A stretch of 21,784 nucleotides of DNA from IMG/VR virus record IMGVR_UViG_3300028831_000818, positions 1-21,784 of that record; one strand, written 5' to 3'. Origin of the DNA: a virus. Shown here piece after piece: positions 3,359-19,034 of this stretch (positions are counted from its first letter, which is position 1; every line of letters starts with the position of its first letter). Under the pieces are notes generated by a model. That model ran no database searches, was not told the origin of the DNA, and saw nothing but the letters and a program-made list of their open reading frames with translations. A program made the position numbers and the translations under genes.

Positions 3359-6300
3359 TCATGCAAGTCGAATGTCGAGATCGGTGGCTGCGATGATGGT
3401 CGAGGCGAGACTGCCCGGCGTGACCCTGATGTGGACCTCGTAGCCGTGCGCGCTGCCCGTCCCCGCCGTGTTCGCCGAGCCCTGCAGCACGTAGCGTTTG
3501 ACCTCGCCCGCTGCGAAACCGTCCGTGAACGAGTCGACGACGTTGCCGTCCGCGACGAGCTGCATCGTGATGCTTTGAGCGAAGGTCTCGGCCTTGACGA
3601 CAACAACCCCATTCGCCTTGAGCCTGATGCCTCTGCCACTCTGCACCGTGATCGTTTTGGTGTCGCTGGCGACGTTGAACGCCCCCGCGATTGGGCCGGC
3701 CGGACCCTGAGTGGCGCCCGCGAACGCCGAGACCGAGCCATTGACCAGCTGGAGCGTGTCGATGATCGCCACGCCAGCAGTCAAGAGCGCTGCGCGCGCG
3801 CTTGTTACGTCCAGCTGATCTGCCCCAATCGAATGGGCCGTCACGATCGCGGCGCGGAAGTCCGCAATATCCGCCTTGGCGGCTGTGAGCGTGCCGTCGA
3901 GCATGACATCGCCGTGCATGAACAGATTGAACGTCGCTCCGGTCGCGTTGCCTTTCACGCCGGTCAGCACAAGCCCGCCAAGCGCGCCGTCGATGTTGCC
4001 CAGCAGCGACCAGCGCACGGACTGTCCGCCGCCATCGACCTCCATCAAATTACTGAGACTGGTCGTGTGCCCGCCGACCGTGCTGCTCAGACTATTGAGG
4101 TCATGGACCAGGCCCGAAGAGCTGTTGCCGACGACAGAGATGACGGCGCCAAGGTCGTGAACGATCCCCGCGCTGTTGTCGCCCACCGTGACGAAGAGGC
4201 TGTTGATGTCATGCACGAGGCCAGACGAGCTGTTGCCGACGACAGAAACGACAGCCGCGAGATCATGCACGATGCCGGCGCTGTTGTTGCCGACCGCCAC
4301 ACTGAGGCTGTTCACGTCATGCACCAGCCCGGCGCTGTTGTTGCCGACCGTCACAACCAGCGCGGCCGTGTCGTGCACCAGGCCGGCGCTGCTGTTGCCG
4401 ACCGTGACGTTCAGGCTGTTCACGTCGTGGACCAGACCGACCGTGCCGTTACCGACAGTCCCGATCAGGTCGTTGAGATCGTGAACGATGCCGCTGCCGG
4501 CATCGCCCACCGTGCTGACCACGCCGTTGAGCGTGTGGATAATGCCGCTCGAATTATCGCCGACCAGCCCGACCAGCACCTGCGTATCGTGCACCAGGCC
4601 GGCGCTGGCATCGCCCACGACGCCGGCAAGCGCGGTGTGCCGCGAGAGCGATGCCGCGGTCTCCTCGGCGCGGATGCGGACCTCATCGGTGAAGGAGACG
4701 AGATTCGCGTTGAATTGCGCCGTCAGGTCGAGGCGCGCGGCGGCCTCAGCGGCGAGCTGGCTTGCGAGCGTCTGGAATGTCTGCTGCAGCGTCGACTTGG
4801 CATCGGCGACCTGCGCCTCAAGCGACTCCCTCACCTTGGCGAAGAATGCACCTGCCTGGTCGATGCCACTCTGCAGTTCGGTCTGCGCGCGCGAGATCAG
4901 CCGGATGCTCTTGGCATCGTCGAGCCACCGCTGGCGCAACGCCATCAACTCGGCCGAGCCCGCGGCTTCGGCTTGACTCACGCCTGAGGACTCGACCAGC
5001 AGGTGGATATTGCCGAGCGCCGCATTGATGGTGACCTCGGCGTTCGTGACGCGGTCGGATACCGCGTCGAGATCATCGAGCGTGGCGCGCAGGTTGATCG
5101 CCGAATTGGCCGCGTCGATCGACAGCTCGGCGGCCGAGACCCGCGCCGTGAGGTTCGAAACCGTGGTGACGCTCGCCTTCGCGTCGATCGCGCCTTGCAT
5201 GCCGTCGATCGCGATCTCGGCGGCCGCGACCCGCGCCTCGACCTGCGGCAGCAGCAGGTCTTGCAGGCGCGAATTGCCCAGCTCGACATAGTCGATCTCG
5301 AATTCATCGGAGACGGCGAGGCCGAGCCCGATGCGAAGCGACGTGAGCGTTCCGGTCCAGGCCGGCTCGTCGCGCATGTCGAGCGCCACTTCGTTCCAGC
5401 TGTCCGGCGCGGTCGGCACCGCGAACGTCTTGCTGCTCGCGTAGGCCGCGCCCCACTGCAGCTGTACGCCCCAATTCGTGCCGGCGCGGCGCCTGACCTG
5501 CACCTTCACGATGCGATTGCTGTCTGCATCGAGCGCGATCACCGGCGATTGAATCGCGGGCGCTGCGCTGGTTGATACGACGTCGATGGTCGCCGCCCCG
5601 GCCGTCGCCGTCGCCCCGACTCCGGCCCAACCCTCGACCGTCCCGTTGAACTCCCAGCGATAGGCCGGCACGAAACCCTGGATGATCGCCTGCGCGACAT
5701 CGTTCAGCTGCGTGGTCGAGGCCTTGAGTGCGATGTTCGCGTTGACCACGTCGAGGATGACGGACACTTGCGACTGGAAGTCGGAGTTGCCCTTGCGCAG
5801 GCTCTCAATGCCTTCGATCGTGTATCGACCGTTGGCCGTGTGAGTGCCGAACCCGGCCTCAACCAGCTTGTGCTCCAGCTCGGTGAGCCGGCGCAGCGAT
5901 GTGAGCGCGGCCTGGCCAACGCTCTCTATGCGCTCGAACAGCACGGGCGGAATGACGCCGGCGACAATCGGATCATTGCGCAAGGGCGCGAGCGGCTGCA
6001 GCGCCTTGACGATGATGTTCGCTTGCTCAAGCGTCGGCTCGACCAGCGCGAGCTTCGCATTGATCTCGTCGGCAAGCTCGCTCCCACTGATGCGGACATC
6101 CGGCGTAGTCACGTCGCGCCAGCCCGACCATGCGGCTTCGCGCGGCGATGCCGGCCGGTACTGGATTTGACCCTGGTATTGCGTGTTCGGAACGAGGTTC
6201 TGGCTCACCGCCAGCGCGGCCGCCTCGAACACCCGCTTGCCTTCCTCGGTATCGAGCTGCAACACCCCCGACGCTTTTAAGCGGACTTGAACGCGGATGC

Positions 6301-8032
6301 CGTCAACGTCGTCTTGTTCGTTGTCCCAGCCGAAGCGCACGCCCGCGCGCTCGACACCGCCAATATTGAAAATGTACGGCTCGACGAACCAGTCGACGAT
6401 CGTCTGCGGCGCGGGCCGCACGATCGCGAGGCCGCCGTCGACGATCGGCTTCTGGTTGGCGGGCGACCAGTTGTAGGCGTTGCCATCCAGCTCCTTGATG
6501 CCGACGCCCATGTTGAGGCTCGGCAGATCGTCCGCGGTCGTGATGTCGAACGTTTTGTTGACATAGCCGTTGCGCGCCGAGGTCCACGAGATCACGTCGA
6601 GCGGTTCGAGCACGAAGGCGTCGGGCGGCAGCGGCAGCACGTGCCGGCGCCACGCGCGCGACGTGTCGCGCTCCGAACGCATCAGGCGTTGCACTTGGTT
6701 CGGCCACGAGACAAAGCCGTAATCGACCGACGTGGGCAGCCGTCGCCCATCAAGCGCCTCAAGGGCGTCGTCCGCGAGCGGCGGCGCATCCTTGAGCGCC
6801 CAGCCTTCGGCCGGGCTGAGATAGCGCGCCGTCACATAGTTGATCGTCGCGTCCTGCCCGACAAACGGATCGCACGTCTGCGCGTCCTTGGTGCGGATGT
6901 CCGCGTCGGTGATGGAGAACACCGCCGCGCCTGCCGCGCCCGATCGCGTCTTGTAGACGCCGCCGATCTCCGCGAGTTTCCCGTTGTCGGCCTTGAGCAG
7001 CTCGGTGAGCACTTCGGCGGGCAGCTGGCCGTAGAGGATTTCACCGCCCGCGCGGAATTGCGGCTCGGTGCCGCCTCCTGCCAGCGCGATCGGCGCGTCG
7101 CATTCGTTCGCGGCTGCGACCCACGAACCGGCCGGCAGCTGCGCCGCCGTGACCGTCTGCGCGCCCCACTGCCACACGCCATCGTAGCGGATGCCGCGCA
7201 GGATGTTTTCCCGGATCACCGCCACGTTTTCGGTGAACGCCCACGTATCGGGATCGTTGAGGCGCTGCGCGCCGCTGCCGCCGTTCGTGCTGTCGTGGCG
7301 ACGGTCGTAGAGCGAGATGCCGCGTAGCGCGAACTTGTATTGCGGGAAGCCCTGAAACACCTCGGGGCGCACGCGGGCGGTCATCACCACCTTTGCGACG
7401 CCGAAGCCGACGCGGCGGTTCGAATAGGGCCGGTCGGCGTCTGCCTCGAACAGCGCGAGCATCCGCGCGTCGGCTTCGGTCTGCGTGCCGTCGAAGAAGC
7501 GCGCCCACAGGAACGTCTGGCCCGCGAAGGTGTATTCCGGGATCGGCACGCCATCGGCGTCCTGTGCTGCATTCGGGTCGAAGGTGACCGGCGTGCCGTT
7601 GACGATGATCTGCACCAAGCCGTTCGAGGGCAGATCGGCAAGCGCAATCTCCTGCACGTAGTAGGCGTTCGGCGTCTTGCCGTCCTGCCCGAAGGTGTTG
7701 TGATAGGTGAGCGAGCCGCCCGTCATGTAGGTGCCGACGCCGAACGCGCGCGGCACGACGCCGCCCGCGGCGAGCTTCCCACTTGACCCGCCGACCGGCG
7801 TGTCGGGTGCTTGCTGGCCGGCCATCGCGGCCTTGAGATAGCTCACGCCGATGCTGAGTGCCGTGCTCGCCACTGCGGTGAGCGCGACGGTGGTCACCGC
7901 CACAGCGGTCGCGGTCGCCTCGATCGACAGTGCCGTCAGGATGGAAATCGAGATCGGCTCCGCGCGCGCCGGCGTCTGCGCGCCCGCAAGCATCCACAAG
8001 GCCAGCAGGACGCAGAGCGCGAGGCGCATCAT
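3359..8032 (-). CDS. Tail tip/central fibre protein (lambda J / GTA megatron-like)
   Basis: This 1557-residue protein is the largest in the window. I chose the ATG at 8030-8032 because it overlaps the previous stop as ATGA. The open frame runs about 300 bases further upstream, but only as antisense-like low-complexity sequence. Residues 1-24 look like a Sec signal peptide (MMRLALCVLLALWML, ending ARA before EP), and a second hydrophobic stretch follows. The J-like tip core spans roughly residues 80-540. A fibronectin-III-like segment (about 545-650), coiled coil, a jelly-roll-like domain (about 790-915, FNGTVEGWAGVG to EIDYVELG), coiled-coil repeats (about 920-1000), helical stalk, ten 18-residue repeats (about 1139-1318) and a beta-rich C-terminal domain come next. 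It should form the tail tip, contact the host and close the tail channel. Its position after an NlpC/P60-like gene matches lambda K-I-J and GTA gp14-gp15. Confidence 0.9.
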   Translation of the reverse strand: MMRLALCVLLALWMLAGAQTPARAEPISISILTALSIEATATAVAVTTVALTAVASTALSIGVSYLKAAMAGQQAPDTPVGGSSGKLAAGGVVPRAFGVGTYMTGGSLTYHNTFGQDGKTPNAYYVQEIALADLPSNGLVQIIVNGTPVTFDPNAAQDADGVPIPEYTFAGQTFLWARFFDGTQTEADARMLALFEADADRPYSNRRVGFGVAKVVMTARVRPEVFQGFPQYKFALRGISLYDRRHDSTNGGSGAQRLNDPDTWAFTENVAVIRENILRGIRYDGVWQWGAQTVTAAQLPAGSWVAAANECDAPIALAGGGTEPQFRAGGEILYGQLPAEVLTELLKADNGKLAEIGGVYKTRSGAAGAAVFSITDADIRTKDAQTCDPFVGQDATINYVTARYLSPAEGWALKDAPPLADDALEALDGRRLPTSVDYGFVSWPNQVQRLMRSERDTSRAWRRHVLPLPPDAFVLEPLDVISWTSARNGYVNKTFDITTADDLPSLNMGVGIKELDGNAYNWSPANQKPIVDGGLAIVRPAPQTIVDWFVEPYIFNIGGVERAGVRFGWDNEQDDVDGIRVQVRLKASGVLQLDTEEGKRVFEAAALAVSQNLVPNTQYQGQIQYRPASPREAAWSGWRDVTTPDVRISGSELADEINAKLALVEPTLEQANIIVKALQPLAPLRNDPIVAGVIPPVLFERIESVGQAALTSLRRLTELEHKLVEAGFGTHTANGRYTIEGIESLRKGNSDFQSQVSVILDVVNANIALKASTTQLNDVAQAIIQGFVPAYRWEFNGTVEGWAGVGATATAGAATIDVVSTSAAPAIQSPVIALDADSNRIVKVQVRRRAGTNWGVQLQWGAAYASSKTFAVPTAPDSWNEVALDMRDEPAWTGTLTSLRIGLGLAVSDEFEIDYVELGNSRLQDLLLPQVEARVAAAEIAIDGMQGAIDAKASVTTVSNLTARVSAAELSIDAANSAINLRATLDDLDAVSDRVTNAEVTINAALGNIHLLVESSGVSQAEAAGSAELMALRQRWLDDAKSIRLISRAQTELQSGIDQAGAFFAKVRESLEAQVADAKSTLQQTFQTLASQLAAEAAARLDLTAQFNANLVSFTDEVRIRAEETAASLSRHTALAGVVGDASAGLVHDTQVLVGLVGDNSSGIIHTLNGVVSTVGDAGSGIVHDLNDLIGTVGNGTVGLVHDVNSLNVTVGNSSAGLVHDTAALVVTVGNNSAGLVHDVNSLSVAVGNNSAGIVHDLAAVVSVVGNSSSGLVHDINSLFVTVGDNSAGIVHDLGAVISVVGNSSSGLVHDLNSLSSTVGGHTTSLSNLMEVDGGGQSVRWSLLGNIDGALGGLVLTGVKGNATGATFNLFMHGDVMLDGTLTAAKADIADFRAAIVTAHSIGADQLDVTSARAALLTAGVAIIDTLQLVNGSVSAFAGATQGPAGPIAGAFNVASDTKTITVQSGRGIRLKANGVVVVKAETFAQSITMQLVADGNVVDSFTDGFAAGEVKRYVLQGSANTAGTGSAHGYEVHIRVTPGSLASTIIAATDLDIRLA
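4079..4618 (-). repeat. Ten tandem 54-bp units encoding 18-residue repeats in the tip fibre
   Basis: Ten consecutive in-frame units of exactly 54 bp encode the pattern V-G-x-x-x-x-G-[LI]-[VI]-H-[DT]-x-x-x-[LV]-x-x-x. For example, one unit reads VGNNSAGLVHDVNSLSVA. The first unit starts at 4618 and units step every 54 bases to 4079. A degenerate eleventh (VGGHTTSLSNLMEV) follows at about 4025-4078. Histidine is kept in all ten units and Asp follows it in nine. The array is diverged at the DNA level, so it is an old expansion rather than an assembly artefact. It probably forms a trimeric stalk (coiled coil or beta structure) whose length can vary by unit gain or loss. Confidence 0.9.
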
Positions 8033-8433
8033 CCCGGCACCTCGAAGGCACGCGTCGCGAGGTCGCGCGCGACGGTCCCGAGGCCATTGCCGCGCGGCAC
8101 CGTCACTCGTTCCCCGTTGACGACGCCAAGCCCCCATCCCGTGGCGTCGTTTGGAAAAGCCATGATGTCGCCAGCCCGCGCCCGCGACGGATGGATTTCT
8201 GACAGATGGCGGCCGATGAAGTCGCACACGTCGGCGTAGCCATCGGCACGCAGCAGCTCGACACCCTGCGCTACGCTGGCATAGCGGCCGCGGTAGCGCT
8301 CCGCGAGATCGTCGCCTGTCATCGCCAGCACGCAATCAGCGGCGAACAGGCCGCAGTCCGGCACCGATGCGCGCCGCTTCTCTTCGATCGCGGCGGACAG
8401 CCGCGCGCGCCAGTCCGGCAAGCGGCGGATCAT
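8029..8433 (-). CDS. NlpC/P60-like tail tip protein (DUF6950-like), possibly degenerate
   Basis: This 134-residue protein is read from the ATG at 8431-8433, which overlaps the preceding stop as ATGA. The open frame extends upstream to 8505, but those codons lie inside the previous gene. The start MIRRLPDWRARL and the DCGLFAADCVLAMTGDD block (Cys27 after Asp26) match a phage family I know as DUF6950, related to NlpC/P60 cysteine peptidases. GDIMAF is the second conserved block. The place where active peptidases carry the catalytic His (GHVGI-type) here reads GWGLGVVNGE, without His. By position it equals lambda K and GTA gp14, which open peptidoglycan during entry. Cys27 may still be functional, but the missing His suggests a structural role or a different catalytic residue. 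Confidence 0.8.
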   Translation of the reverse strand: MIRRLPDWRARLSAAIEEKRRASVPDCGLFAADCVLAMTGDDLAERYRGRYASVAQGVELLRADGYADVCDFIGRHLSEIHPSRARAGDIMAFPNDATGWGLGVVNGERVTVPRGNGLGTVARDLATRAFEVPG

Positions 8434-9098: not shown

Positions 9099-9733
9099 CA
9101 GGGCACCTGCAGGGCTTGGAAGGCAACCGAACCCAGCGGCCCCTTCAGCGATCGCGGATCAAATGTGCCGGGCAGGATGAACATCTCGGCCGCGGGCTTC
9201 TTCAACGTCACGACAAGTCCGGTTGCGACGCCAGCGCGGAGGTGCGGCCGCACGGCGAGCAGCGGCGTGCGGCCCGCGCCATCCGCCGCGCCCGAGGCTG
9301 CGAACCGATGGAAGCAGCGGCGCAGGTTCGGCGCGACTCCCGTGTCGAAGCAAAAGAAGTCGCCGATCGTGATCTGATAGCCGATAGGCAGGCCGGCGAG
9401 ACGCAAGGACTTGTTGTCGCCGCCGAGCGCGTCGATCGTGACAACACTCGCACCGAGGATTGTGCCGTTCGGATCGGCAAAAGGATAAGGCCGGCGCGGG
9501 TTGGACAGATAGAACGTGCCGATCGCGCCATCGAGCGCGTCGATGGTCGCCTCGATTGCGCCGGACTCATAATCCGTCGTTACGTCGCACGTGATGGTCG
9601 CGGCCCACAGCTCCTCACCGAGATCGGCCGCGCGCGGCGTGCCGCCGCCCGTCGGGCTCACCTCCTGCTGCCGCTGCAGCAGAAAGGCGGCCTGAGTGAT
9701 CGGCAGCATGTTCATGAGGTCCGTGTTCGGCAT
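9098..9733 (-). CDS. Distal-tail-like protein (lambda M / GTA gp12 position)
   Basis: This 211-residue protein directly follows the tape measure. I chose the ATG at 9731-9733, which overlaps the tape measure stop as TGATG and has GGGAC upstream. A GTG four codons earlier (9745) is the alternative. The N-terminal helix (NTDLMNMLPITQAAFLLQRQQEVS) is followed by a beta-rich body: LWAATITCDVTTDYESGAIEA, FYLSNPRRPYPFADPNG, GYQITIGDFFCFD and LVVTLKKPAAEMF. The AxLW plus beta-strand layout and the position between tape measure and hub fit a distal tail protein that caps the tail tube and starts the tip. No fold can be proven by eye, so the function is inferred mainly from synteny. Confidence 0.75.
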   Translation of the reverse strand: MPNTDLMNMLPITQAAFLLQRQQEVSPTGGGTPRAADLGEELWAATITCDVTTDYESGAIEATIDALDGAIGTFYLSNPRRPYPFADPNGTILGASVVTIDALGGDNKSLRLAGLPIGYQITIGDFFCFDTGVAPNLRRCFHRFAASGAADGAGRTPLLAVRPHLRAGVATGLVVTLKKPAAEMFILPGTFDPRSLKGPLGSVAFQALQVP

Positions 9734-12168
9734 CAGCGGTCCCACGGCCTCTTGACGATATCGTGCACGCGCGTCGGCAGATGCTTGCGCGAGAACACGT
9801 CGAGCTTCTCGTCGATCATCCGGCCGACTAGCATCAGCGAGCCATCCGGGCCCTCCTGCGCGTCGAAGGTCTCTCCCTTTGCCGCCGGGTGAACGTGCAC
9901 GATCGGCGCGCCGCCGCTGCCGAGAGCAGAGCGCAGCGAGGGCGGCATGCCAACGTAGCCGCCGCTCTCATACCCATCGAGCTTGCCCTCGTAGATCGCC
10001 TGCAACAGCGGGAGGTGACGGGCGGTCGTGTCCGCATCCATCACAAATTCCTCACCGTGCACGACGCCTGCGATCTTCTTCTTCCCGATCTTGCCCGTGT
10101 ACCCGCCTTCGTCGAACGTCGCGGCGGCCGCGCTCACACCGGGAAGTGAGAAACCGCCGAACGTCGGATCGGCAACGGTCGCGCCGCTTTTCCCGAAGAT
10201 GCCAATCAGATTGAACAGCCCGCCGCTTCCGCTCGTGCCGCCGAGCGCCGCTTCCCACAACTTCTTCGACGCCATGTCTGAGAGCTTGTCGGCGATCGTG
10301 CCGAGCGAGTTGAGGCCCGCCGTGCGCAACGCCTCGAATCCCTTGGCGCCACTCGACAGCTCGGTGCGCAGGTCGCGGAAGAATGACGACGTGACCTCAG
10401 CGCCGCTGTCTTTGAACGCCTTGGCGGCAGAATTGATGCGCAGCTGCGCGGCTTCCGTGCTCGCCATCGCGGCGGGAATGTTATTGCCGTAGAGGTCGCG
10501 CAGCTTCGTCGCGATCGCCACGTCCTCTTCGCTCATGAACAGCGTTTTGCGCTCGAACGTGATGTCGCTCTGCAGCTTCATGCGCGCGGCAGCGTCGGCA
10601 AGGCCACCGTAGGCAAGGGCCTCCTCATGAAGTTTTGCGCGCCGCGCATCGCTCAACGTGATGCCTTCCGCTTCGGCGCGCGCGAGCAGCTCTTGCTCTT
10701 TGCGATATGCCTCGGCCGGCGCGAGCGCCATACCGGCAGTCGCCGCCTGCGCACGCAATGCGGAGTTTTGCGCGATGAACTGTTCAGTCACCTGCCGCAT
10801 GAACCCGCGAGCAGCGATCTCGTTGACGGCGCCCGCAACCTTTCCGGCCGCGGCGGCGTATTGTTCGTTGTCGCGAACGCCTGCCTTGGTTTGCTCGTTG
10901 TAGATTTTCTGCGCCGTGGCCGACATGCCCGCCGTGCGCGCCTCGACTTCGAGCGCGTTCACCACCTCGTTGATGGTTTCGGCCTTGCGCTTGTTCTCTG
11001 CGGTACTTGCCTGCTGTCTGGCGATGTCGCCCTGCATTTCGTCGAACGCAGAGCCGAACCCGCCAGAGAACGCGCGCCCGGCGCGCGGCGTCGGAGCAGG
11101 AGGCGGCGCGGGCGTCGTTCCTGTGATTGATTGCCCGATGTAAGTGCCAATTGCGGAGCCGACCTTGAAGGGCCACAGCGGCGATGCGAGCGCCTTGACG
11201 TCAGGCGAATTCTCGCGCGCCTTCCTCAGTCGCTCCGCAGCATCGGCCGCACCGTTGAGAACATCCTTAAGCCGAAGCGCCTCGCTGATATCCCTTCCGA
11301 GGTCCGCGAAGAACGAGCCGCTCGATGTCGTGAGCCGGCCGAAGGCGCCACCGAGTGTGTCGGCCGCGCGCGCATCCGCGCCCGAGAACTGCTTCGAGAC
11401 AGAGTCAAGGATAAGCTTCTGCGCCGCCGCCGCGTTCCCGGTCGCGACAAGGTCTTTGGCGAGCTGCTGTTGCCGGACAGAGAGCGACGCGCTGATCTCT
11501 TTCAGATGATCGGATGCATTGGCCGGATCGCTCAACGCCTGCGCCAGCGCAACCGTCGCATCCTTGAGCGGCGCTATGCCAGTCGCCGCCACATCGCGCG
11601 CGGTCTTGAGCACCGCGCCGAATGCGTCCGTGCCCACCGCCTTGTACCGAAGCAGCGCAAGCTGCGCCTGCTGCACGTCGTCGAGCGTTTGCGTGCCGGT
11701 GCTCGCGAGCTGCCGGGCCATTGTGTCGAGGCCCTGCACGGTTTGCCCGGATGCGCTCTTGGTGACCGCGAGCAGACTCGCGACCCTGACTTGGTGTTGC
11801 TCCAGCTCGCTGAACGCGGTCACCGCCTTGTAGACCGTCGCAACCGCTGCGGCCACCGCGATGGTTACGCCAACGACGCCCACGCCGAGCCGGCCCATGC
11901 CAACGGTGAGTGTGCCGGTTTGGCCGATCACGCCCGCAAGCGGGCCGCCCATCAGCGCCGCCTCGCGCGCCAACGTTTTGAAGACTGTGCGTAGCGACGT
12001 GCCCGCGCCGGCCGCCCTCTGCCCGCCGTCCTCGATTGGCGTGAACGGGTTGTTGCTCGGCTGCTTCGCTTCGTCCTTCGCCTGCTTCACCGCGTCGCGC
12101 ACTTGCGCGATCGCCTTCTTGGCGTTGTCGGCCGAGCCGTCGATGATGAGCGAGACGCGCAGCGTCAT
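9733..12168 (-). CDS. Tail tape measure protein
   Basis: This 811-residue protein starts 6 nt after the frameshift product's stop. It is long, alanine-rich and helical. A hydrophobic glycine/alanine stretch lies at about residues 74-116 (GGPLAGVIGQTG to AAAVATVYKAVTAF), expected to insert into or cross the inner membrane during DNA delivery. Heptad-rich helices follow, with a proline-rich break near residue 355 (TTPAPPPAPTPRAGRAF). The C-terminus contains FDEGGYTGKIGKKKIAGVVHG and HGEEFVMDADTT, which is the standard ending of lambda-type tape measures. The protein sets tail length during assembly. At the usual about 0.15 nm per residue, the tail would be roughly 120 nm. Its ribosome binding site is weak, which fits coupling to upstream translation. 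Confidence 0.95.
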   Translation of the reverse strand: MTLRVSLIIDGSADNAKKAIAQVRDAVKQAKDEAKQPSNNPFTPIEDGGQRAAGAGTSLRTVFKTLAREAALMGGPLAGVIGQTGTLTVGMGRLGVGVVGVTIAVAAAVATVYKAVTAFSELEQHQVRVASLLAVTKSASGQTVQGLDTMARQLASTGTQTLDDVQQAQLALLRYKAVGTDAFGAVLKTARDVAATGIAPLKDATVALAQALSDPANASDHLKEISASLSVRQQQLAKDLVATGNAAAAQKLILDSVSKQFSGADARAADTLGGAFGRLTTSSGSFFADLGRDISEALRLKDVLNGAADAAERLRKARENSPDVKALASPLWPFKVGSAIGTYIGQSITGTTPAPPPAPTPRAGRAFSGGFGSAFDEMQGDIARQQASTAENKRKAETINEVVNALEVEARTAGMSATAQKIYNEQTKAGVRDNEQYAAAAGKVAGAVNEIAARGFMRQVTEQFIAQNSALRAQAATAGMALAPAEAYRKEQELLARAEAEGITLSDARRAKLHEEALAYGGLADAAARMKLQSDITFERKTLFMSEEDVAIATKLRDLYGNNIPAAMASTEAAQLRINSAAKAFKDSGAEVTSSFFRDLRTELSSGAKGFEALRTAGLNSLGTIADKLSDMASKKLWEAALGGTSGSGGLFNLIGIFGKSGATVADPTFGGFSLPGVSAAAATFDEGGYTGKIGKKKIAGVVHGEEFVMDADTTARHLPLLQAIYEGKLDGYESGGYVGMPPSLRSALGSGGAPIVHVHPAAKGETFDAQEGPDGSLMLVGRMIDEKLDVFSRKHLPTRVHDIVKRPWDR

Positions 12169-12174: not shown

Positions 12175-12549
12175 TTACTCATTGAGTGCCGCGCGCGCGG
12201 CCTCTTCCATGATACATACGTCCGCCCACAACGATGGCGTAAGGCTGATGCCGCTTGCTTCGATGCCCGCCCGCGCGCCCGCATAGTCGAAGCCGAGATA
12301 GACCAGGCGCGCCTTTGTCATGGTGTTGAGCGAGGCGACGCGCCATTGCGTGGAGGCGGCGAGGAAAGCGGCGAGCGCCTCGACGTTCTCCGGCCAGACC
12401 TCGAAGGCCGGCTGCGCGGCGGTGAGGCAGGCGCGCAGCGCTTCTATCTGCTCCTCCGAGCAGCCCTCGCGCCGCGCGTCGTTCAATGCTTCCGGTTCGT
12501 CCTCGGGCCGCTCTTCCCCGCGCGCCCAGCGCCGCGCGGCCCATTTCAG
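12175..12549 (-). CDS. Tail assembly chaperone extension (DUF1799), made by -1 frameshift
   Basis: This frame is open from the frameshift site at 12549 to TAA at 12175-12177, adding 124 residues to the upstream protein. It contains FEVWPENVEALAAFLAAST, QWRVASLNTMTKARLVYLGFDY and a WADVCIMEEAA ending, the pattern of DUF1799, the counterpart of the lambda T part of GT. There is no ATG start in frame; the only candidate I see is a TTG at 12484-12486 that would drop the first 21 residues and lacks a clear ribosome binding site. The ATG at 12544 is in a different, non-coding frame. Expression as a fusion of about 233 residues through the GGGAAAC site is therefore most likely. The fusion should bind tail tube subunits and the tape measure during assembly. 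Confidence 0.85.
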   Translation of the reverse strand: MKWAARRWARGEERPEDEPEALNDARREGCSEEQIEALRACLTAAQPAFEVWPENVEALAAFLAASTQWRVASLNTMTKARLVYLGFDYAGARAGIEASGISLTPSLWADVCIMEEAARAALNE

Positions 12550-12555
12550 TTTCCC
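12505..12555 (-). promoter_or_regulatory. Programmed -1 ribosomal frameshift signal
   Basis: On the minus strand the heptamer G GGA AAC (12555-12549) sits in the X XXY YYZ register of the chaperone frame, one codon before its TGA. A 6-nt spacer follows, then a stem: GGGCCGC at 12542-12536 pairs perfectly with GCGGCCC at 12511-12505, enclosing a 24-nt GC-rich loop. Slipping back one base leads into the open DUF1799 frame (CTG AAA TGG). Heptamer, register, spacing and downstream frame all agree with the lambda G/GT type of signal. Confidence 0.88.
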
Positions 12556-12875
12556 CGTGCGGCCTTCTTGATGGCCTCGCGGTACGTTCTCCCCAATGCG
12601 AGGGATACGTAGGGATTGCCGATCAGCTGATCGCGCAATGCATCCGAATAGGGGAGAGGCTTCTCTTGCTCATCGACGAGATCGTCGAGCTTGACAATGA
12701 CTGCGACCAGGAAGTCGCGCGACCCCTCGACTGTGTTGAGGTCGAAGCTGTCGAGTTTCGCGTTATCGATAACCCGAAACGTCGCTTTGAACGTCTGCTC
12801 GACGTGCCCCCCATCGACCGGCACCTGCACGGCAACAGGATGCGTGAAATGAGGCTCCCGGCTCACCACAAACAT
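12546..12875 (-). CDS. Tail assembly chaperone (lambda gpG-like, zero frame)
   Basis: This 109-residue protein starts at an ATG preceded by GGAGGTT at about 8 nt. The N-terminal half is beta-rich (FVVSREPHFTHPVAVQVPVD, FKATFRVID), and the C-terminal half is helical (SRDFLVAVIVKLDDLVD, DALRDQLIGNPYVSLALGRTY). This layout is common for phage tail assembly chaperones that sit between tail tube and tape measure. It ends ARGN-stop exactly on a slippery heptamer, giving both the short form and a longer fusion with the next frame. The short form is expected to outnumber the fusion. It does not remain in the mature particle if it behaves like lambda gpG. Confidence 0.85.
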   Translation of the reverse strand: MFVVSREPHFTHPVAVQVPVDGGHVEQTFKATFRVIDNAKLDSFDLNTVEGSRDFLVAVIVKLDDLVDEQEKPLPYSDALRDQLIGNPYVSLALGRTYREAIKKAARGN

Positions 12876-12904: not shown

Positions 12905-13840
12905 TCAGAAGATCGTGACCTTGAACTGGTCGTTGCCAGCATCGGTCGGGTTGGGGACCAGCTTGAGCGGCCACATCAGCGTGCCGTCCTCATTCTGGTA
13001 CGCGTCGAGCATCTTCACTTGGCACTGCGCGGCCTCGACCTTCACCTTGTAGCCGGCGCGCGTGTCCTGCTGGACGACGAACGGAACGAGGTTTGCCGGT
13101 GATGCAGCAAGCGCGAACGGATTAAGCGTCGCTAGCGGCACCGCCTCGACCAGCAGGTCGATACCTTCGTTGGAGTCGTCGATGATGATCTCATTGCGGC
13201 CGATCAGCAGCCGGTGCTTGACGTCGTTGTTGAGATTGAACGCCATCGAGCGCATGACAAGCGAGACGCCATTGAGCGTCATCACCGGCGTGTTCGCAGT
13301 CGTCGACACCAACGGCGCCTTGAACGCCGAGAGGTCGATTGAGGGGACAGCGGTGGCCGTAGGTTCCGCATATAGCCCGGTGAATTCGCAGCGGATGAAC
13401 GGAATGCCCTGCGCAACGATGTTGAACGTTGCATTGCCGCGGCATCCAAGAATTTTCTGCCGGTTGTCGCCGATCCAGAAATAATGCGCTAGCGCGTCAT
13501 AGTTCTCCGAGACCGGCGTATATTGCGCGTCGACGCCGGCCGAGAGGACCTCGGCCATGCCAAGCGCGCGCAGCACCGGGCTGATCGGCGACGCCGTGCC
13601 CGCCGCACCGCCGCCCACCATCTCCACGTCATACTTGAGCGTCGTACGCAGCCCGACCGGGAAAATCTGTTGAGCGCCGCGGAACGGACGCTCAATGTCG
13701 CGCGTGACCTCCTCGCCCTGCATCGGGCTGCACTCGACGTTCTTGGCGAGGATCGCTTGCGTCGGCACCGGGTCGACGCCGTAGCTGCTTTCGATCTTCG
13801 CGCGGATCAGCTTGGACTTCCAGCGCAGAGCTTCCGCCAT
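12905..13840 (-). CDS. Major tail tube protein
   Basis: This 311-residue protein is read from an ATG with an AAGGAG site 9 nt upstream, which overlaps the stop of the 55-residue gene. The start (ALRWKSKLIRAKIESSYGVDP) and the block IERPFRGAQQIFPVGLRTTLKYDVEMVGGG are typical of siphovirus tail tube proteins. Two beta-sandwich-like halves follow, the first with YTPVSENYDALAHYFWIGD and the second with MTLNGVSLVMRSMAFNLNND. The C-terminus (DGTLMWPLKLVPNPTDAGND) is a separate beta stretch. Many copies would stack as rings to form the tail tube. No sheath gene is present beside it, so the tail should be non-contractile. Its position immediately before the chaperone pair is the standard siphovirus arrangement. 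Confidence 0.88.
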   Translation of the reverse strand: MAEALRWKSKLIRAKIESSYGVDPVPTQAILAKNVECSPMQGEEVTRDIERPFRGAQQIFPVGLRTTLKYDVEMVGGGAAGTASPISPVLRALGMAEVLSAGVDAQYTPVSENYDALAHYFWIGDNRQKILGCRGNATFNIVAQGIPFIRCEFTGLYAEPTATAVPSIDLSAFKAPLVSTTANTPVMTLNGVSLVMRSMAFNLNNDVKHRLLIGRNEIIIDDSNEGIDLLVEAVPLATLNPFALAASPANLVPFVVQQDTRAGYKVKVEAAQCQVKMLDAYQNEDGTLMWPLKLVPNPTDAGNDQFKVTIF

Positions 13841-13846: not shown

Positions 13847-14014
13847 CTACTCCTTCGGCGCCGCGGGAGTGGACGCGGGTTGTTGTTCGGGCGGCATGGG
13901 AACGGCCGCGACGCCCTCATGATCCGGACTGCCGAGCTGCGCGGTCTGATCGACCAGCTCCAGCGATCCATCGGACTTGCGGCGATAGCTGCCGCCTTGT
14001 GTCGGGTTGCTCAT
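13847..14014 (-). CDS. 55-residue hydrophilic protein between tail terminator and tail tube
   Basis: This short gene begins at an ATG overlapping the gp37-like stop as ATGA and ends at a TAG located inside the ribosome binding site of the tail tube gene. The protein starts MSNPTQGGSYRRKSDGSLEL, runs through VDQTAQLGSPDHEGVAAVPM and ends in a proline/alanine/glutamine tail. It is polar and probably disordered. The GGSY-RRK-DGSL block resembles small proteins I recall at this place in Mu-like phages, but I cannot name a domain. Overlap on both sides and the strong link to the tail tube start support it as a real coupled gene. It could help in tail joining; that is inference from position. Confidence 0.75.
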   Translation of the reverse strand: MSNPTQGGSYRRKSDGSLELVDQTAQLGSPDHEGVAAVPMPPEQQPASTPAAPKE

Positions 14015-14451
14015 GCGACGGCGATCCTCAGTTGGTTTTGGACCTCAAAATCGATCTGGTAGATGACCACGCCGTTTTGAACCGACACGAGGCGGCCGCG
14101 GCGCGCATTGACATCGCCCGACGCGCCTTCCGGTACCCAGCCGCACACGGCGTGGCACACGAGCGGCTCCAGCTCGTCGATCTTTTCGAGGGCGCGCTTG
14201 GCCTTCGGGTCCCCCTTCGCGCTGATCACAAGCACGACGGCGATGCCGTCAACGCGCTTCTGGACATAGAGTCCCGCCGCGTCCTCCGGGGTTCGTCCGT
14301 CGAAGCCGAGCGGCACGACGAAGCCGGCCGGTGAGCGCTGCGGGAGCGCGCCCTGGTCGATGAGCTCGGCGAGGTCCATTACCTCATCGAGCTTGCCGAG
14401 CGCGGTCACTCTCGGCTCAATGCGCTCCTTGAATTGCGAGACGAGCGTCAC
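14011..14451 (-). CDS. Mu gp37-like protein, probable tail terminator
   Basis: This 146-residue protein is read from a GTG at 14449-14451 that overlaps the gpG-like stop (GTGA). The frame is open far upstream inside other genes, so a longer call starting near 15156 would be wrong. It starts VTLVSQFKERIEPRVTALGKL and has the blocks GFVVPLGFDGRTPED, VDGIAVVLVISAKGDP, LEPLVCHAVCGWVPEG, RGRLVSVQNGVVIYQIDF. These match the Mu gp37 / DUF1834-type family, small alpha-beta proteins at the head-tail junction that act as tail terminators in siphoviruses. It lies after the gp36- and gpG-like genes and before the tail tube, as expected for a tail terminator. Confidence 0.82.
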   Translation of the reverse strand: MTLVSQFKERIEPRVTALGKLDEVMDLAELIDQGALPQRSPAGFVVPLGFDGRTPEDAAGLYVQKRVDGIAVVLVISAKGDPKAKRALEKIDELEPLVCHAVCGWVPEGASGDVNARRGRLVSVQNGVVIYQIDFEVQNQLRIAVA

Positions 14452-15002
14452 TGCCGCTGCTCCTTCGCAATCCAGTCCTCGGCGATCGCGATGATTTCGC
14501 GATTGTCGTCGTCGTCGAGCCCAAGGAACGGCCGCGCCGGCATTGTGATGGTGCGCGCGCCGATCTCCACCTTCTTGGCGTAATTCGCCTTGCTGTTCGC
14601 TTTCGCAAAGCGCGTTCGTCCAGTGCGGGCGTTGTGCTTGAAGTGCAGGACAGCCTCGCGCGCGGCCTGCCGAATGATGCCGCCGAACTGATGGATCGCC
14701 GCATAGACGGCGTTGCTGCCAACCTCGACGCCCTGATCGGAGGCGATAAAGGTTTGCGATCGCATCAGCCGACCGGAGAGCACGAGCGTCTTGCCGCCGT
14801 GCGCAAGCACGCGCAGCGAAGGCGGCCAGGGCGAGCCATCCGGGCCGATGCCGGTTTCGAAGCGATGCTGCGTCGACGCGACGAGCGAGGCGCCGATGCG
14901 CTCGTACATGCCGCGCGGGTGCTCGATGCGCTGCAGGTAGCCGGCGAGCTGGTCGAGCGCATCGGATGCGTTGACGGAAATGCTCACGCCAGGCGCGGCC
15001 AT
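14448..15002 (-). CDS. Mu gpG-like virion morphogenesis / tail completion protein
   Basis: This 184-residue protein starts with TGATG overlap. The order of motifs is characteristic of the phage virion morphogenesis family (PF05069, Mu gpG): an N-terminal helix region (SDALDQLAGYLQRIEHP, YERIGASLVASTQHRF), then ETGIGPDGSPWPPSL, KTLVLSGRLMRSQTF, VEVGSNAVYAAIHQFGG and a C-terminal PARPFLGLDDDD block. The family functions in completing the tail or joining it to the head. In Mu, G lies between F and I; here it follows the gp36-like gene. A basic insertion between HQFGG and PARPFLG (FKHNARTGRTRFAKANSKANYAKK) is somewhat longer than I would expect. Confidence 0.88.
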   Translation of the reverse strand: MAAPGVSISVNASDALDQLAGYLQRIEHPRGMYERIGASLVASTQHRFETGIGPDGSPWPPSLRVLAHGGKTLVLSGRLMRSQTFIASDQGVEVGSNAVYAAIHQFGGIIRQAAREAVLHFKHNARTGRTRFAKANSKANYAKKVEIGARTITMPARPFLGLDDDDNREIIAIAEDWIAKEQRQ

Positions 15003-15430
15003 CAGAGGAAGCCTCGCAGGTTGTCGGGCGTGAGATCGCGCTCGCGATCGGTGACGCGCACGCCGGTTGCGCCGCTGGCGGCCGGCTCAACGCCCGCCAC
15101 GTCAAGGCGCACCAGGCCATTCGCGATCTGGGTGAGCGTGCGCAGCGCGTCGTCATAATCCTTGCGGATTTTGTCGCCCGCGCTGCCCGCGTGCATCTTG
15201 TAGATCGCGATCGTGAGCGCGAGGTCGCGCAGCAGCGGCGGCGTGTCGGCGATCGGCAGCGCGTAACGGCCCTTCAGATAGCCGTCGATCAGCGCGCTTG
15301 CGTCGTCGATTGCGCGGGCCACCGCCGCGGCGTCGATCGCATTCGTCGGCGGGTCGGCGCGATCGGTCAGCTCGATCAGCATGCCCGCGCCGTAGCGGTC
15401 GGCCAGCTCGGCTTGTGTGCAGTAGCTCAC
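15002..15430 (-). CDS. Mu gp36-like head-tail connector (DUF1320)
   Basis: This 142-residue protein begins at a GTG overlapping the previous stop (GTGA), with GAGG 9 nt upstream. The start SYCTQAELADRYGAGMLIELTDR and the central ARAIDDASALIDGYLKGRY, LPIADTPPLLRDLALTIAIY and IRKDYDDALRTLTQIANG are textbook DUF1320 (Mu gp36). Proteins of this family form a helical adaptor ring below the portal. The C-terminus ends in a short polar tail (VRVTDRERDLTPDNLRGFL), as is usual. It is well supported by motif order and by its neighbours. Confidence 0.93.
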   Translation of the reverse strand: MSYCTQAELADRYGAGMLIELTDRADPPTNAIDAAAVARAIDDASALIDGYLKGRYALPIADTPPLLRDLALTIAIYKMHAGSAGDKIRKDYDDALRTLTQIANGLVRLDVAGVEPAASGATGVRVTDRERDLTPDNLRGFL

Positions 15431-15615
15431 CGCTCGATGCCTCGCAGCTTGTCGAACGCAGCGTCGAGAAACCCCAGACCCAAGCTGATCGCTTCCTGCT
15501 CGGAGGCAACACCACCATCAGCGGCGAACCGCTCGATGAGCAAACGAAGGGATGCGCCGGCTTTGAAGGCGGCACGCCCGTTCTCGTAGCTCTCGTTTAG
15601 AACTTTTGGGTCCAT
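15427..15615 (-). CDS. Small helical phage protein of unknown function
   Basis: This 62-residue protein starts MDPKVLNESYENGRAAFKAG. It is predicted to be mostly helical, with two amphipathic helices (ASLRLLIERFAAD and EQEAISLGLGFLDAAFDKLR) joined by a GG turn. Its ATG directly abuts the TAG of the 28-residue membrane peptide upstream (TAGATG), and its own stop overlaps the GTG of the gp36-like gene, so it is coupled on both sides. I do not recognise a named family, although small proteins with an ENGRAA-like start occur at this place in related phages. A role in head assembly is possible from position only. Confidence 0.75.
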   Translation of the reverse strand: MDPKVLNESYENGRAAFKAGASLRLLIERFAADGGVASEQEAISLGLGFLDAAFDKLRGIER

Positions 15616-15702
15616 CTAGCGCCGCCCCTTCGAGATGGCCGCCATCGCGGCGACGAACAGCAGGAACGCGACCAGGATCAGAAGGGGAGCAGCGTCTTTC
15701 AT
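15616..15702 (-). CDS. 28-residue single-pass membrane peptide
   Basis: This short gene encodes a peptide that starts MKDAAPLLILVAFLLF and ends AISKGRR. One hydrophobic segment of about 17-18 residues is flanked by an acidic/lysine N-terminus and a basic C-terminus, which favours C-inside orientation. It ends in TAG exactly at the ATG of the next gene, so translation can restart directly. The upstream region has only a modest GGGACG/AAGAAG site. Function is unknown; in a late operon it could be a holin-like or membrane-targeting peptide, but 28 residues is shorter than typical holins. The coupling and the hydrophobic pattern make chance less likely. Confidence 0.6.
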   Translation of the reverse strand: MKDAAPLLILVAFLLFVAAMAAISKGRR

Positions 15703-15740
15703 CGTCCCGGACTTCTTCCCCCGGTTTGGCGTTTAAGGCC

Positions 15741-15776
15741 CAGCCGCGCCGCACGCGTGACAGAGCGGCGCGGCTG
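15741..15776 (-). terminator. Perfect 12-bp stem-loop in the gap before the membrane peptide gene
   Basis: CAGCCGCGCCGC (15741-15752) and GCGGCGCGGCTG (15765-15776) are exact inverse complements around a 12-nt loop. No T-run follows on either strand. The region 15703-15827 (125 bases) holds no other feature I can see. The hairpin could be a partial terminator or an RNA processing or stability element separating the capsid genes from the connector genes. Confidence 0.45.
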
Positions 15777-15827
15777 GTGCGCGATGCGGCCAGGCCGGGA
15801 ACCGGCCGCAACCCGCAATCCGTGAAG

Positions 15828-16016
15828 TCAGCGCCTCTGCTTTGCGGCCGCAGGCGGCGTGTCGGGCTCAGCCTGCTCGGCTGCCGATACGTCGACCGCG
15901 CCGGAGGCGCGTAGCGCGTCGTCGACCAGCGACGCGTCGATCGAGGAGCCAATCTCGTAGAGCTTGCCGTCGTGGCGGATGGACGAAAGCACCGGAAGTT
16001 TTTTTGGATCGGCCAT
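15828..16016 (-). CDS. Small head protein after the capsid gene (DUF7210-like)
   Basis: This 62-residue protein starts 12 bases after the capsid stop. The N-terminal part reads LPVLSSIRHDGKLYEIGSSI followed by DASLVDDALRASGAVDV. The HDGKLY..G..I...L...L...GAV pattern matches a small family of phage head proteins that I associate with DUF7210. The C-terminus is a polar alanine/proline/lysine tail (PDTPPAAAKQRR). The ribosome binding site is weak (GGGGG). The role is unknown; the constant location right after major capsid genes suggests a head accessory function. Confidence 0.75.
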   Translation of the reverse strand: MADPKKLPVLSSIRHDGKLYEIGSSIDASLVDDALRASGAVDVSAAEQAEPDTPPAAAKQRR

Positions 16017-16028
16017 TGCGCGCCCCCG

Positions 16029-17003
16029 TTATGCGACGGCGTTCTGGATGAAGTAGCCGGTGTCTTTTGCGACCACCAACTCCTTCACCCGCTCGCCGGT
16101 GCGGATGCGCACGCCGCCTTGCAGGCCCACGTCGCGGTCTTCAATGCGGCCGGCGATCTTGGTGCCGTACTGCGCCGTGAAGCCGAACGTGATGCCGCCG
16201 CCCTGCGGGTTGGCGATCGAGTTCACGTAGGTGAGCGAGATGTGCTTGCCCCAGGCGCGCGCGAGGTTCGTCGCCTGGCCAGGACGCGCCGTGTTGTAGA
16301 ACGCGTCGCCGACCAGCACCCTCTTGATGCCGTAGTCGGCGAACATCTCCTGGAATTGCTGGATCGTGATGATGCCCGCATTGGTGAGATTGCCCTTGAC
16401 GGCATTCACCACCTTCGGATGGCTGGAGAGCTTCGACCACACCGCGCGGCCCATCGTCATGGTGTTGGGCGGGAACACCAGCGTAGACTCGCAGCCGACC
16501 TTGATCACGCCGATCGGATCGGAGTTGGTGTAGTCGGAGAACTGGTCGGTGCCGGAGAGCGTAACGCGCCGCGAGGCCGCGTAGGTGTTGAGGTTGTGCA
16601 CCAGATTCGCGACGCGCACCTCGCGGATGTTCGCCATCGTGTCGGCGAGCATCATGGTGGCGTGGCCTTCCGGATCGTAGGTCGAGACCTTGCGGTCGCG
16701 CGCTTCCTGCGCCGCCTCGATATCCGAATAGGGGATCGGCGACTCCAGGCCCCAGTCGTCGACCGCATCATTGCGCTCGGTGCCGCCAAATTCGAGCTGC
16801 TGCACGCGGCCACGGCGGCCGACGCGCGCATCCGGCGCGCTGAAGGCCTCTTCAAGCGGATACTCGGTCCACTTGAACCGCTCGGCGCCGACCGGCACGC
16901 GCGGCAGCACATCGTCGGCGATCATCACCGCGTCTGGATTGCGATAGCCAACCGCGATCGCGGTGAGGATCGGGTCGACGACAAAGGGACGAATGGGGGC
17001 CAT
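16029..17003 (-). CDS. Major capsid protein
   Basis: This 324-residue protein follows a strong ribosome binding site (AGGAG, 5 nt from ATG). Conserved blocks include YRNPDAVMIADDVLPRVPVG, KWTEYPLEEAFSAPDARVGR, DDWGLESPIPYSDIEAAQE, IREVRVANLVHNLNTYA and GRAVWSKLSSHPKVVNAVKG. These match a capsid family of phages with HK97-fold heads; it is not the Mu gpT type. No separate N-terminal delta domain is visible, consistent with the separate scaffold encoded inside the protease gene. It lies directly after a small decoration protein, the usual order. Hundreds of copies would build the icosahedral shell. Confidence 0.92.
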   Translation of the reverse strand: MAPIRPFVVDPILTAIAVGYRNPDAVMIADDVLPRVPVGAERFKWTEYPLEEAFSAPDARVGRRGRVQQLEFGGTERNDAVDDWGLESPIPYSDIEAAQEARDRKVSTYDPEGHATMMLADTMANIREVRVANLVHNLNTYAASRRVTLSGTDQFSDYTNSDPIGVIKVGCESTLVFPPNTMTMGRAVWSKLSSHPKVVNAVKGNLTNAGIITIQQFQEMFADYGIKRVLVGDAFYNTARPGQATNLARAWGKHISLTYVNSIANPQGGGITFGFTAQYGTKIAGRIEDRDVGLQGGVRIRTGERVKELVVAKDTGYFIQNAVA

Positions 17004-17029
17004 GCAAGCTCCTGTTGGTCAGCCGCGCG

Positions 17030-17416
17030 TTACGCCGGCAGCTGGATGACGCCGCGCTCGACGAGGCACGGAATGATGTCGCCGGCGACGCCCGGCAGCA
17101 GCGCCGAGGCGACGTACTCGCGGCGGGCGCCGGCGGCGCCGACGCACTTCACCGCGGCGCCGTTCGCGTCGCTGGTGAGCTTGTCGCCGGCAGCGACCGT
17201 GCCGCCGAGCGTCACTTCGCCAAGGCCGCCAAGGATGATATCGGCCATGCCGCCGCTCACCGCGCCCATCGCGTCGGAGACGCCGAGCAGCGGATCAGTT
17301 GCCGCGGCGGCCGGCGCGATCTTCGCGGTGTTCGCCGCGTCGGAGAACTTCACGATGCGCTTCGCGCCGATATCGGCGGACGCCTCGTAGGAAACGATCA
17401 GGATCGGGATGCTCAC
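17030..17416 (-). CDS. Head decoration / capsid cement protein (DUF2190-like)
   Basis: This 128-residue protein starts at a GTG overlapping the protease stop (GTGA), with AGGAG 8 nt upstream. It is glycine- and alanine-rich with short beta strands: IPILIVSYEASADIGAKRIV, LLGVSDAMGAVSGGMADIIL, GLGEVTLGGTVAAGDKLTSD and YVASALLPGVAGDIIPCLVE. The G.V..GD.LT.D..G pattern and the ASALLPGVAGD-type ending are common in capsid cement proteins placed just before or after the major capsid gene. Its likely role is to bind the outer capsid surface and stabilise the expanded shell. Confidence 0.82.
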   Translation of the reverse strand: MSIPILIVSYEASADIGAKRIVKFSDAANTAKIAPAAAATDPLLGVSDAMGAVSGGMADIILGGLGEVTLGGTVAAGDKLTSDANGAAVKCVGAAGARREYVASALLPGVAGDIIPCLVERGVIQLPA

Positions 17417-18051
17417 TGCTTCTGCTCCTGCTGCTGGGTGACGGCGTGCACGGCGGCCGCGATGTCGACGACCTGACCCTGGTCGCTCATCTTCTTCTGG
17501 TAGGCCCGCGCCTGGGCGGCGATCGCGACGGGGTCGGCGTCAGCGCCCGCTGAATGCGTCGCGCCGCGCGGCGGCAGCGGGCCGGGATCGACTTTCGCGA
17601 ACGCGTTCAGTTCTTTTTCGACGCGCGCCGGGTCTTTGGCGTGCTGCTCGATGTAGTGCTCGCGCAGCGGCTTCACGCCGATGCGACCCTCCGCGATCTT
17701 CGCGTCGACAAAGGCGGTCGCGCGATCCCGCGCCACCTGGCTCTGCAGCGCGGTGAACTGCGTGGTGACGTTCGTCAGCTCGCTCTGCAGCGCGGTGACG
17801 CGCGCATCGCCGTCCTTGCCCTGAGTGGCCGCGAGCGAGGTGGCGGTGTGAACGACCAGCGCGGTCTCGGCATCCTCCTTGAGGCCGAGCGCCCTCGCGA
17901 TCTGCGATTGCGCGGCGGTACCGCTCGCGGCCTTCGCCTTGTCGGCGGCCGCGGCGCTCATCACGGCGCTCACCGCAGAATAGATCGCATCATTCTCCGC
18001 GTCGTCCGGCAGGCCCAACAGGGTGCGGAGTTTCTTCAGCAGCTCTTCCAT
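17413..18051 (-). CDS. Scaffold protein from an internal in-frame start (Mu gpZ-like)
   Basis: Within the protease gene, an in-frame ATG at 18049-18051 is preceded by GAAGGAG at 18063-18057, 5 nt away. This is a far better ribosome binding site than the one at the protease start. The 212-residue product begins MEELLKKLRTLLGLPDDAEN and is almost entirely helical, with Ala-rich and coiled-coil stretches, as expected of a scaffold. Mu gene Z is nested in gene I in the same manner. Higher output from this start would give the excess of scaffold over protease needed for assembly. The nested product is inferred from the start signal and the family. Confidence 0.8.
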   Translation of the reverse strand: MEELLKKLRTLLGLPDDAENDAIYSAVSAVMSAAAADKAKAASGTAAQSQIARALGLKEDAETALVVHTATSLAATQGKDGDARVTALQSELTNVTTQFTALQSQVARDRATAFVDAKIAEGRIGVKPLREHYIEQHAKDPARVEKELNAFAKVDPGPLPPRGATHSAGADADPVAIAAQARAYQKKMSDQGQVVDIAAAVHAVTQQQEQKQ

Positions 18052-18522
18052 GTCGACTCCTTCGGCGTGAAGCGAAACCAGGTTGCGCAAATTCGGCGTG
18101 TTGGTGAGCGAGGCGCGCAGCACGCGCAGCACACGGTTGTTCTTGTCGTGCTCGAAGACCGGCGAAATGCCGCGGTACGCGTGATCGGCGATCAGCGCCT
18201 GTCCGGCCTTGCCCCACTGCACGCGGCCCCAAAGGCCATCGTTGCGCGCCTGCAGTTCGACGATCCATCCGAGCGCTGGCGACGGCGCGCCCTTCGGTGC
18301 CGCGAAGTCCGTGGCGTGATTTTCGTCGACGGGAAGCTTGCCGCCGGCGGCCGCAAGACTCTGCGCGGCGAGCGCCGCCATGTCGTTGACGGTATAGGGG
18401 CCGCGGCCGTCCTGCGTTTCGATCTTTCCGGCCGGCAGCAGGTTGATCCACTCGGGCGCGGAGCCGTCCGCAGCCGCGTGAAGCGCGACGAAAATGTTCG
18501 CTGTTGCCTTCGCCCCGGACAT
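17413..18522 (-). CDS. Prohead protease with scaffold domain (Mu gpI-like)
   Basis: This 369-residue protein matches the Mu-like I protein family (PF10123). The protease part, about residues 1-155, contains WINLLPAGKIETQDGRGPY, LPVDENHATD, LGWIVELQARNDGLWGRVQW, YRGISPVFEHDK and LRASLTNTPNLRNL. The scaffold part, about 157-369, is helical and charged with a coiled-coil segment (VTALQSELTNVTTQFTALQS). An ATG at 18049-18051 with a near-perfect Shine-Dalgarno starts the scaffold separately. The protease cleaves the scaffold, and probably itself, during prohead maturation. The annotated ATG at 18520-18522 has no clear ribosome binding site and lies at the end of a 9-bp inverted repeat. The plus-strand gene diverges from it. 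Confidence 0.93.
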   Translation of the reverse strand: MSGAKATANIFVALHAAADGSAPEWINLLPAGKIETQDGRGPYTVNDMAALAAQSLAAAGGKLPVDENHATDFAAPKGAPSPALGWIVELQARNDGLWGRVQWGKAGQALIADHAYRGISPVFEHDKNNRVLRVLRASLTNTPNLRNLVSLHAEGVDMEELLKKLRTLLGLPDDAENDAIYSAVSAVMSAAAADKAKAASGTAAQSQIARALGLKEDAETALVVHTATSLAATQGKDGDARVTALQSELTNVTTQFTALQSQVARDRATAFVDAKIAEGRIGVKPLREHYIEQHAKDPARVEKELNAFAKVDPGPLPPRGATHSAGADADPVAIAAQARAYQKKMSDQGQVVDIAAAVHAVTQQQEQKQ

Positions 18523-18541
18523 GCGGCGACAATCGCCGCAT
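18521..18541. promoter_or_regulatory. 9-bp perfect inverted repeat covering the protease start
   Basis: ATGCGGCGA and TCGCCGCAT are exact inverse complements around a 3-nt loop (CAA). The repeat occupies the space where the protease Shine-Dalgarno should be and reaches into its start codon. It also lies in the 72-bp region between the divergently read protease and zinc-ribbon genes. It could act as an RNA hairpin limiting protease translation or as a DNA operator. A weaker repeat, CTGAC-GCGT-GTCAG, lies at 18561-18574. I see no convincing -35/-10 pair. Confidence 0.5.
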
Positions 18542-18594
18542 CACGCCACGACTCGTAACCCTGACGCGTGTCAGCCCCCTCAACGGTAACGACG

Positions 18595-19016: not shown

Positions 19017-19034
19017 GTTAAAGCGGCATTTAAC
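19017..19034. repeat. AT-rich 6-bp inverted repeat beside the long stem-loop
   Basis: GTTAAA and TTTAAC are exact inverse complements around GCGGCA, immediately after the long stem-loop. In this GC-rich region an AT-rich palindrome is notable and could be a protein binding site. The rest of the 18970-19124 gap shows GC-rich palindromes (CGGCCG twice, near 19080-19120) but no gene that I can support. Confidence 0.35.

Follow-up and report, generated by a model that had tools for sequence, protein, structure and literature searches.

The window analysed here is a 21,784-nucleotide stretch of viral DNA, and the tail genes considered below lie on its minus strand. Two overlapping open reading frames (12546-12875 and 12175-12549) are placed between the tail tube gene and the tape measure gene. 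The first (12546..12875) encodes a protein of 109 amino acids, designated a G-like tail assembly chaperone on the basis of its match to phrog_569 'tail' (E 3e-16) and its position between the tube and tape measure genes. No Pfam family is matched by the window chaperone itself, and Phage_TAC_4 (PF08748) matches 26 of 68 aligned homologues (best E 1e-7). The second, a T-like extension in the -1 frame, runs for 124 codons from CTG AAA TGG (12178..12549, stop at 12175-12177) and matches PF08809 (DUF1799) and phrog_680 (E 2e-16). A V-like tail tube protein is encoded upstream (12905..13840; Phage_tube_2, E 3e-8; phrog_290, E 1e-19) and an H-like tape measure protein downstream (9733..12168; TMP_2, E 5e-9; phrog_24, E 6e-11). 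The order tube, chaperone, DUF1799, tape measure is thus that of lambda V, G, T and H.

Several other features of the window were noted. A Mu-like head/connector module (Mu portal, Mu gp36 and Phage_tail_S virion morphogenesis, 14011-21498) is combined with a lambda-like tail module (Phage_tube_2, TMP_2). Within the long ORF 3359-8335, positions 4100-4456 form a tandem array that repeats every 54/108 bp, amounts to 3.3 copies of 108 bp and encodes degenerate repeats, for example VGNNSAGLVHDVNSLxVT. The right contig end (21735-21784) is Illumina TruSeq adapter, AGATCGGAAGAGCGTCGTGTAGGGAAAGAGTGTAGATCTCGGTGGTCGCC, which gives the translations SFPTRRSSDL and IGRASCRERV and needs trimming. In addition, PHROG families 569 and 680, to which the two chaperone halves belong, both carry the label 'tail length tape measure protein', a label that also appears in the records of RC1, RS1, PS-1 and Silvergun.

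The two frames meet where the minus strand reads, 5′ to 3′, GCC GCA CGG GGA AAC TGA AATGGGCCGC. The heptamer G GGA AAC (GGGAAAC, 12555-12549) lies there in the X XXY YYZ register, beginning at the last G of CGG, and is adjoined without a gap by the 0-frame chaperone stop TGA (12548-12546). Past the heptamer, a 6-nt spacer (TGAAAT) leads into a predicted stem, of which the 5′ arm GGGCCGC (12542-12536) and the 3′ arm GCGGCCC (12511-12505) form 7 bp and enclose 24 nt. Folding of a 60-nt segment gave pair probabilities of 0.91-0.97 for this stem. The first-pass annotation, made from the letters of the window, had described a slippery heptamer in this register one codon before the chaperone stop, followed by such a spacer and a perfect GC stem; all of these were found, the heptamer directly abutting TGA, a point that the annotation had not stressed. 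A compact hairpin, CCGCGCG/CGCGCGG, was considered as the true stem and rejected, with a probability of 0.02-0.04 in the window; such a form is used by related loci.

The open stretch of the -1 frame begins just past a stop at 12672 and extends down to 12175. As the first-pass annotation had also claimed, this frame leads into DUF1799 and is not opened by ATG: the product read from the heptamer, LKWAARRWARGEERPEDEPEALND..., matches Pfam DUF1799 (PF08809) with E 9e-11 and 42.3 bits against a gathering cut-off of 26, and the first ATG, GTG or TTG in the frame is TTG 12486, 21 codons beyond the heptamer. The ORF that an annotator would call from this TTG (12175..12486) is, as foreseen, a truncated DUF1799 extension without the conserved N-terminal L..AAR.W motif, and is probably not the real product. 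Across all CDSs of the window, in-frame XXXYYYZ heptamers occur at 9 of 6694 codon positions, and GGGAAACTGA occurs once, compared with 0.02 expected; a chance origin of the signal is untenable because of the family conservation data given below.

The predicted fusion would be 233 amino acids long (109 + 124). The AlphaFold2 model of the chaperone (pLDDT 90.9) ends in a long C-terminal helix, residues 88-108, and in the model of the extension (pLDDT 94.4) the first ten residues, which are reached only through the frameshift, are helical at pLDDT 95. A helical chaperone end and a helical extension start make a continuous joint plausible in these models. A PDB fold search with the AlphaFold models of both halves returned no significant match, and the fold is therefore no independent proof of function. 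The DUF1799 profile also weakly resembles ribosomal protein L20 (E 0.001-0.7); because this resemblance is confined to a short stretch and L20 is absent among the best fold matches, it was set aside as a chance one.

DUF1799 loci were collected from viral contigs, from prophages in bacterial genomes (Pfam model) and from named phages. Clustering at 80% identity gave 173 non-redundant loci, two of which are cut by a contig end before the site, leaving 171 usable. The results showed that 166 of the 173 carry GGGAAAC (87 loci) or AAAAAAC (79 loci, including L248, a very weak profile match of 18 bits with its stop 105 nt off, which may be no true case) in the register that leads -1 into DUF1799, so that the predicted conservation of the heptamer in homologous loci was borne out. 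Besides the two truncated loci, the remaining seven comprise two without a heptamer (Xanthomonas phage phiL7 and one contig locus) and three with other heptamers, one locus each: GGGAAAA (Xanthomonas phage CP1), AAAAAAG and GGGTTTG. In CP1 the GGGAAAA touches TAG, and in phiL7 only GTAAAATAA is present, where an A_AAA slip beside the stop is possible. On an approximate tree, GGGAAAC and AAAAAAC have been exchanged about 13 times, at least three of these switches being forced by well-supported branches. Switching between the two heptamers preserves slipperiness while the encoded residue changes from Gly to Lys.

Taken together with the gene arrangement, the sequence evidence makes it very probable that the proportions of two tail assembly chaperones are governed at this locus by programmed -1 ribosomal frameshifting. 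Most ribosomes would terminate at TGA and release the 109-amino acid G-like chaperone. A minority would be paused over GGGAAAC by the 3′ stem-loop, possibly also by the stop codon entering the A site, and in the slippage that we infer these ribosomes would move one base back, with re-pairing from GGA to GGG and from AAC to AAA. Translation would then continue as ...KKAARGN-LKWAARRWARG... through 124 codons, and the resulting G-T fusion of 233 amino acids would have DUF1799 as its last part. If lambda is a guide, the G part may coat the tape measure protein and the T part may recruit tube subunits. In the standard model, the Gly and Asn tRNAs slip in tandem, aided by the 3′ stem. The abutting stop would allow a second route, in which the slip occurs while AAC occupies the P site and the stop codon the A site; as both routes yield the identical peptide ARGN-LKWAAR, protein sequencing cannot tell them apart. 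A_AAC is much less shift-prone than A_AAG in Escherichia coli (review PMC5009743). With such a weak shift codon the shift rate may be low, and a helper such as the stop is plausible.

The position of the stop was compared across the family. The 0-frame stop lies at distance 0 from the site in 155 of the 173 clusters, and 154 of these have XXXAAAC (154 of the 171 usable), although an abutment of only 12.8% is expected from the CTN leucine codon usage of the same genes. The codon CTA accounts for 2.8% of background CTN codons but for 54 of the 155 site codons, and it is always followed by an A or G, which completes TAA or TAG. At many loci with a more distant stop, leucine persists at the site, encoded as CTC, indicating that leucine is constrained at the protein level and that the stop is a further constraint. 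These data would suit a reading in which the abutting stop contributes to the signal: termination would be slow when AAC fills the P site and the stop the A site, and the slip would compete with the release factor. This reading, which also fits the weaker A_AAC shift codon, is a refinement of the frameshift explanation and not a contradiction of it, and we put its chances at somewhat less than even. The stop may, however, be kept in place only so that the short chaperone terminates at a set residue. Moreover, all three stop codons (TGA, TAG and TAA) occur, followed by various fourth bases, so that no poor-termination context appears to be selected, which argues against selection for especially slow termination, and at least 11 clusters keep XXXAAAC with the stop 3-54 nt away. 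More tentatively still, the DUF1799 chaperones may share a distinct signal made up of (GGG/AAA)AAAC touching the stop plus a 3′ stem-loop, in which the A-site stop would actively stimulate the shift, termination would compete with -1 slippage and the fusion ratio would be set by release-factor supply.

The heptamer marks the exact point at which protein conservation leaves the 0 frame and continues in the -1 frame. In random locus pairs, the mean BLOSUM62 score upstream of the site was +0.59 for the 0 frame against -0.36 for the -1 frame, and just past the heptamer the -1 frame takes over, with mean scores of +4.0 for L, +3.2 for A, +2.9 for R and +6.7 for W. The conserved residues L, A, A/G, R and W all fall within the first nine -1 codons, and those that only a shift can supply are widespread (L1 in 165 of 169 loci, A4 in 148 and W8 in 135). 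Start codons are scarce around the site: no ATG, GTG or TTG occurs in the DUF1799 frame from -60 to +26 nt of the site in 131 of the 155 abutting loci, and none of the 155 has an ATG or GTG near the site with a Shine-Dalgarno-like 4-mer. A search for DUF1799 homologues started by ATG and devoid of the heptamer, named by the first-pass annotation as the case that would speak against a frameshift, found none; only 6 of the 155 have any ATG close to the site.

These data bear on whether DUF1799 could be a separate gene, translated by reinitiation from TTG 12486 after the chaperone stop, with the heptamer incidental. A TTG is indeed present at 12486, and the depositors of RC1, RS1, VarioGold, PS-1, S72 and others annotated two genes. 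However, the TTG product would be without the conserved L..AAR.W segment, most homologues offer no start near the junction from which such a product could begin, and reinitiation leaves both the near-invariant heptamer and the localised RNA structure described below unexplained. Furthermore, the 'two-gene' phages VarioGold, PS-1, S72, RC1 and RS1 too have the heptamer against the stop. A separate gene is therefore very improbable. Among relatives, the fusion is annotated in some and two genes in others.

RNA structure 3′ of the heptamer was assessed by comparing the 46 nt past it with synonymous recodings that follow each locus's own codon usage (n = 155). The result showed that the structure is stronger than coding demands (mean z -1.30, s.e.m. 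0.10), and control windows at +60, +120, +180 and +240 nt gave z values of -0.25, +0.03, -0.04 and -0.11, respectively. Codon choice thus favours 3′ RNA structure only beside the heptamer. The window's own stem stands modestly above its synonymous shuffles (z -1.47). Stems of at least 6 bp are found in 133 of the 155 loci, most of them starting 5-8 nt past the heptamer, with register and loop size varying. Among the tree neighbours L171, L184 and L140, an identical 5′ arm pairs with a distal 3′ arm, L140 having U-A instead of C-G. No consensus pairs emerged when ungapped family alignments were folded with RNAalifold, and the synonymous-shuffle test was used in its place because the register and loop length of the stem vary between lineages. 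Like the heptamer, its register, the missing start codon and the tail-gene synteny, a 3′ stem is found in very diverged phages. In frameshift chaperones of the lambda G/GT type, such downstream structure is frequent without being universal.

The spacing of these structures also bears on whether the fusion arises by transcriptional slippage and not by ribosomal frameshifting. In many homologues AAAAAAC is part of a run of 6-8 A, on which a polymerase can slip. By contrast, GGGAAAC is the heptamer of the window and of half the family, with no homopolymer longer than 4 at the site, and the structure lies at ribosome spacing, the best stems mostly starting 5-8 nt past the heptamer. Transcriptional slippage is accordingly at least as hard to credit as a separate gene, and we rate it slightly lower. 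An error of sequencing or a genuine inactivating indel as the source of the frame change, as the untrimmed adapter at the right contig end and the imperfect assembly quality might suggest, is refuted for practical purposes by the conservation across loci, since the heptamer and its frame relation recur in isolated phages and in over 150 non-redundant loci.

Ribosomal frameshifting thus stands as the preferred explanation. Its mechanism is known and the fusion is already annotated in some relatives; the part worth keeping is the rule, valid across the family, that XXXAAAC touches the chaperone stop. Gene callers split or truncate the DUF1799 chaperone fusion, and with this rule the probable true fusion was located in almost all DUF1799 phages examined. 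The rule also supports naming DUF1799 as the portion of a tail chaperone that the frameshift encodes. Should the abutting stop be a stimulator, the DUF1799 family would constitute a large natural series in which termination is set against -1 slippage at a weakly shifty Asn codon.

The best known system of this type is the programmed -1 frameshift of lambda gpG/gpGT, reportedly described by Levin in 1993 and Xu in 2004. The window resembles lambda in the order tube, G, T and tape measure, in a -1 shift on XXXAAAN near the end of the chaperone gene and in T being an extension of G. Unlike lambda, in which the heptamer is GGGAAAG and the stop lies 15 nt past it, the window has AAC as the shift codon instead of AAG and a stop that touches the heptamer. 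The DUF1799 profile gave no match to lambda T. As the extension shows no detectable homology to lambda T and the chaperone has no Pfam match, the locus is filed with lambda by mechanism and gene order and not as a homologue of lambda G/T; the lambda G/GT type assigned by the first-pass annotation stands in that sense, and does not extend to homology with T, to the shift codon or to the place of the stop. Closer relatives are Serratia phage Smarc2 and Stenotrophomonas phage Silvanus, in which the fusion is already annotated as a frameshift product (by homology to T1). Like the window, both have a DUF1799 extension and a heptamer (AAAAAAC) that abuts the stop; they differ in having AAA for GGG and in their hosts. 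The tail chaperones of Caulobacter phages phiCbK and Colossus and of haloarchaeal phages HCTV-1 and HCTV-2 have AAAAAAC or GGGAAAC slippery sites and are likened to the window by the heptamer alone.

In frameshifted genes of the SEA-PHAGES collection, the heptamer lies on average 26 nt from the stop (PMC10274946). No family-wide account of abutment between heptamer and stop was found in the literature covered, which lay largely outside subscription journals, and the arrangement has been noted in single papers. In Acinetobacter phage Loki, AAAAAAC immediately precedes the stop of gp12 in the gp12/gp13 pair (PMC5313236), and in Burkholderia phage KL1, GGGAAAC immediately precedes the TGA of gp18 in gp18/gp19 (PMC3483164). 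The KL1 site (L264:12430-12490) has GGGAAACTGA in the tail chaperone as in the window, and its extension is not detectably DUF1799, suggesting that the arrangement of a heptamer touching the chaperone stop may extend beyond the DUF1799 family.
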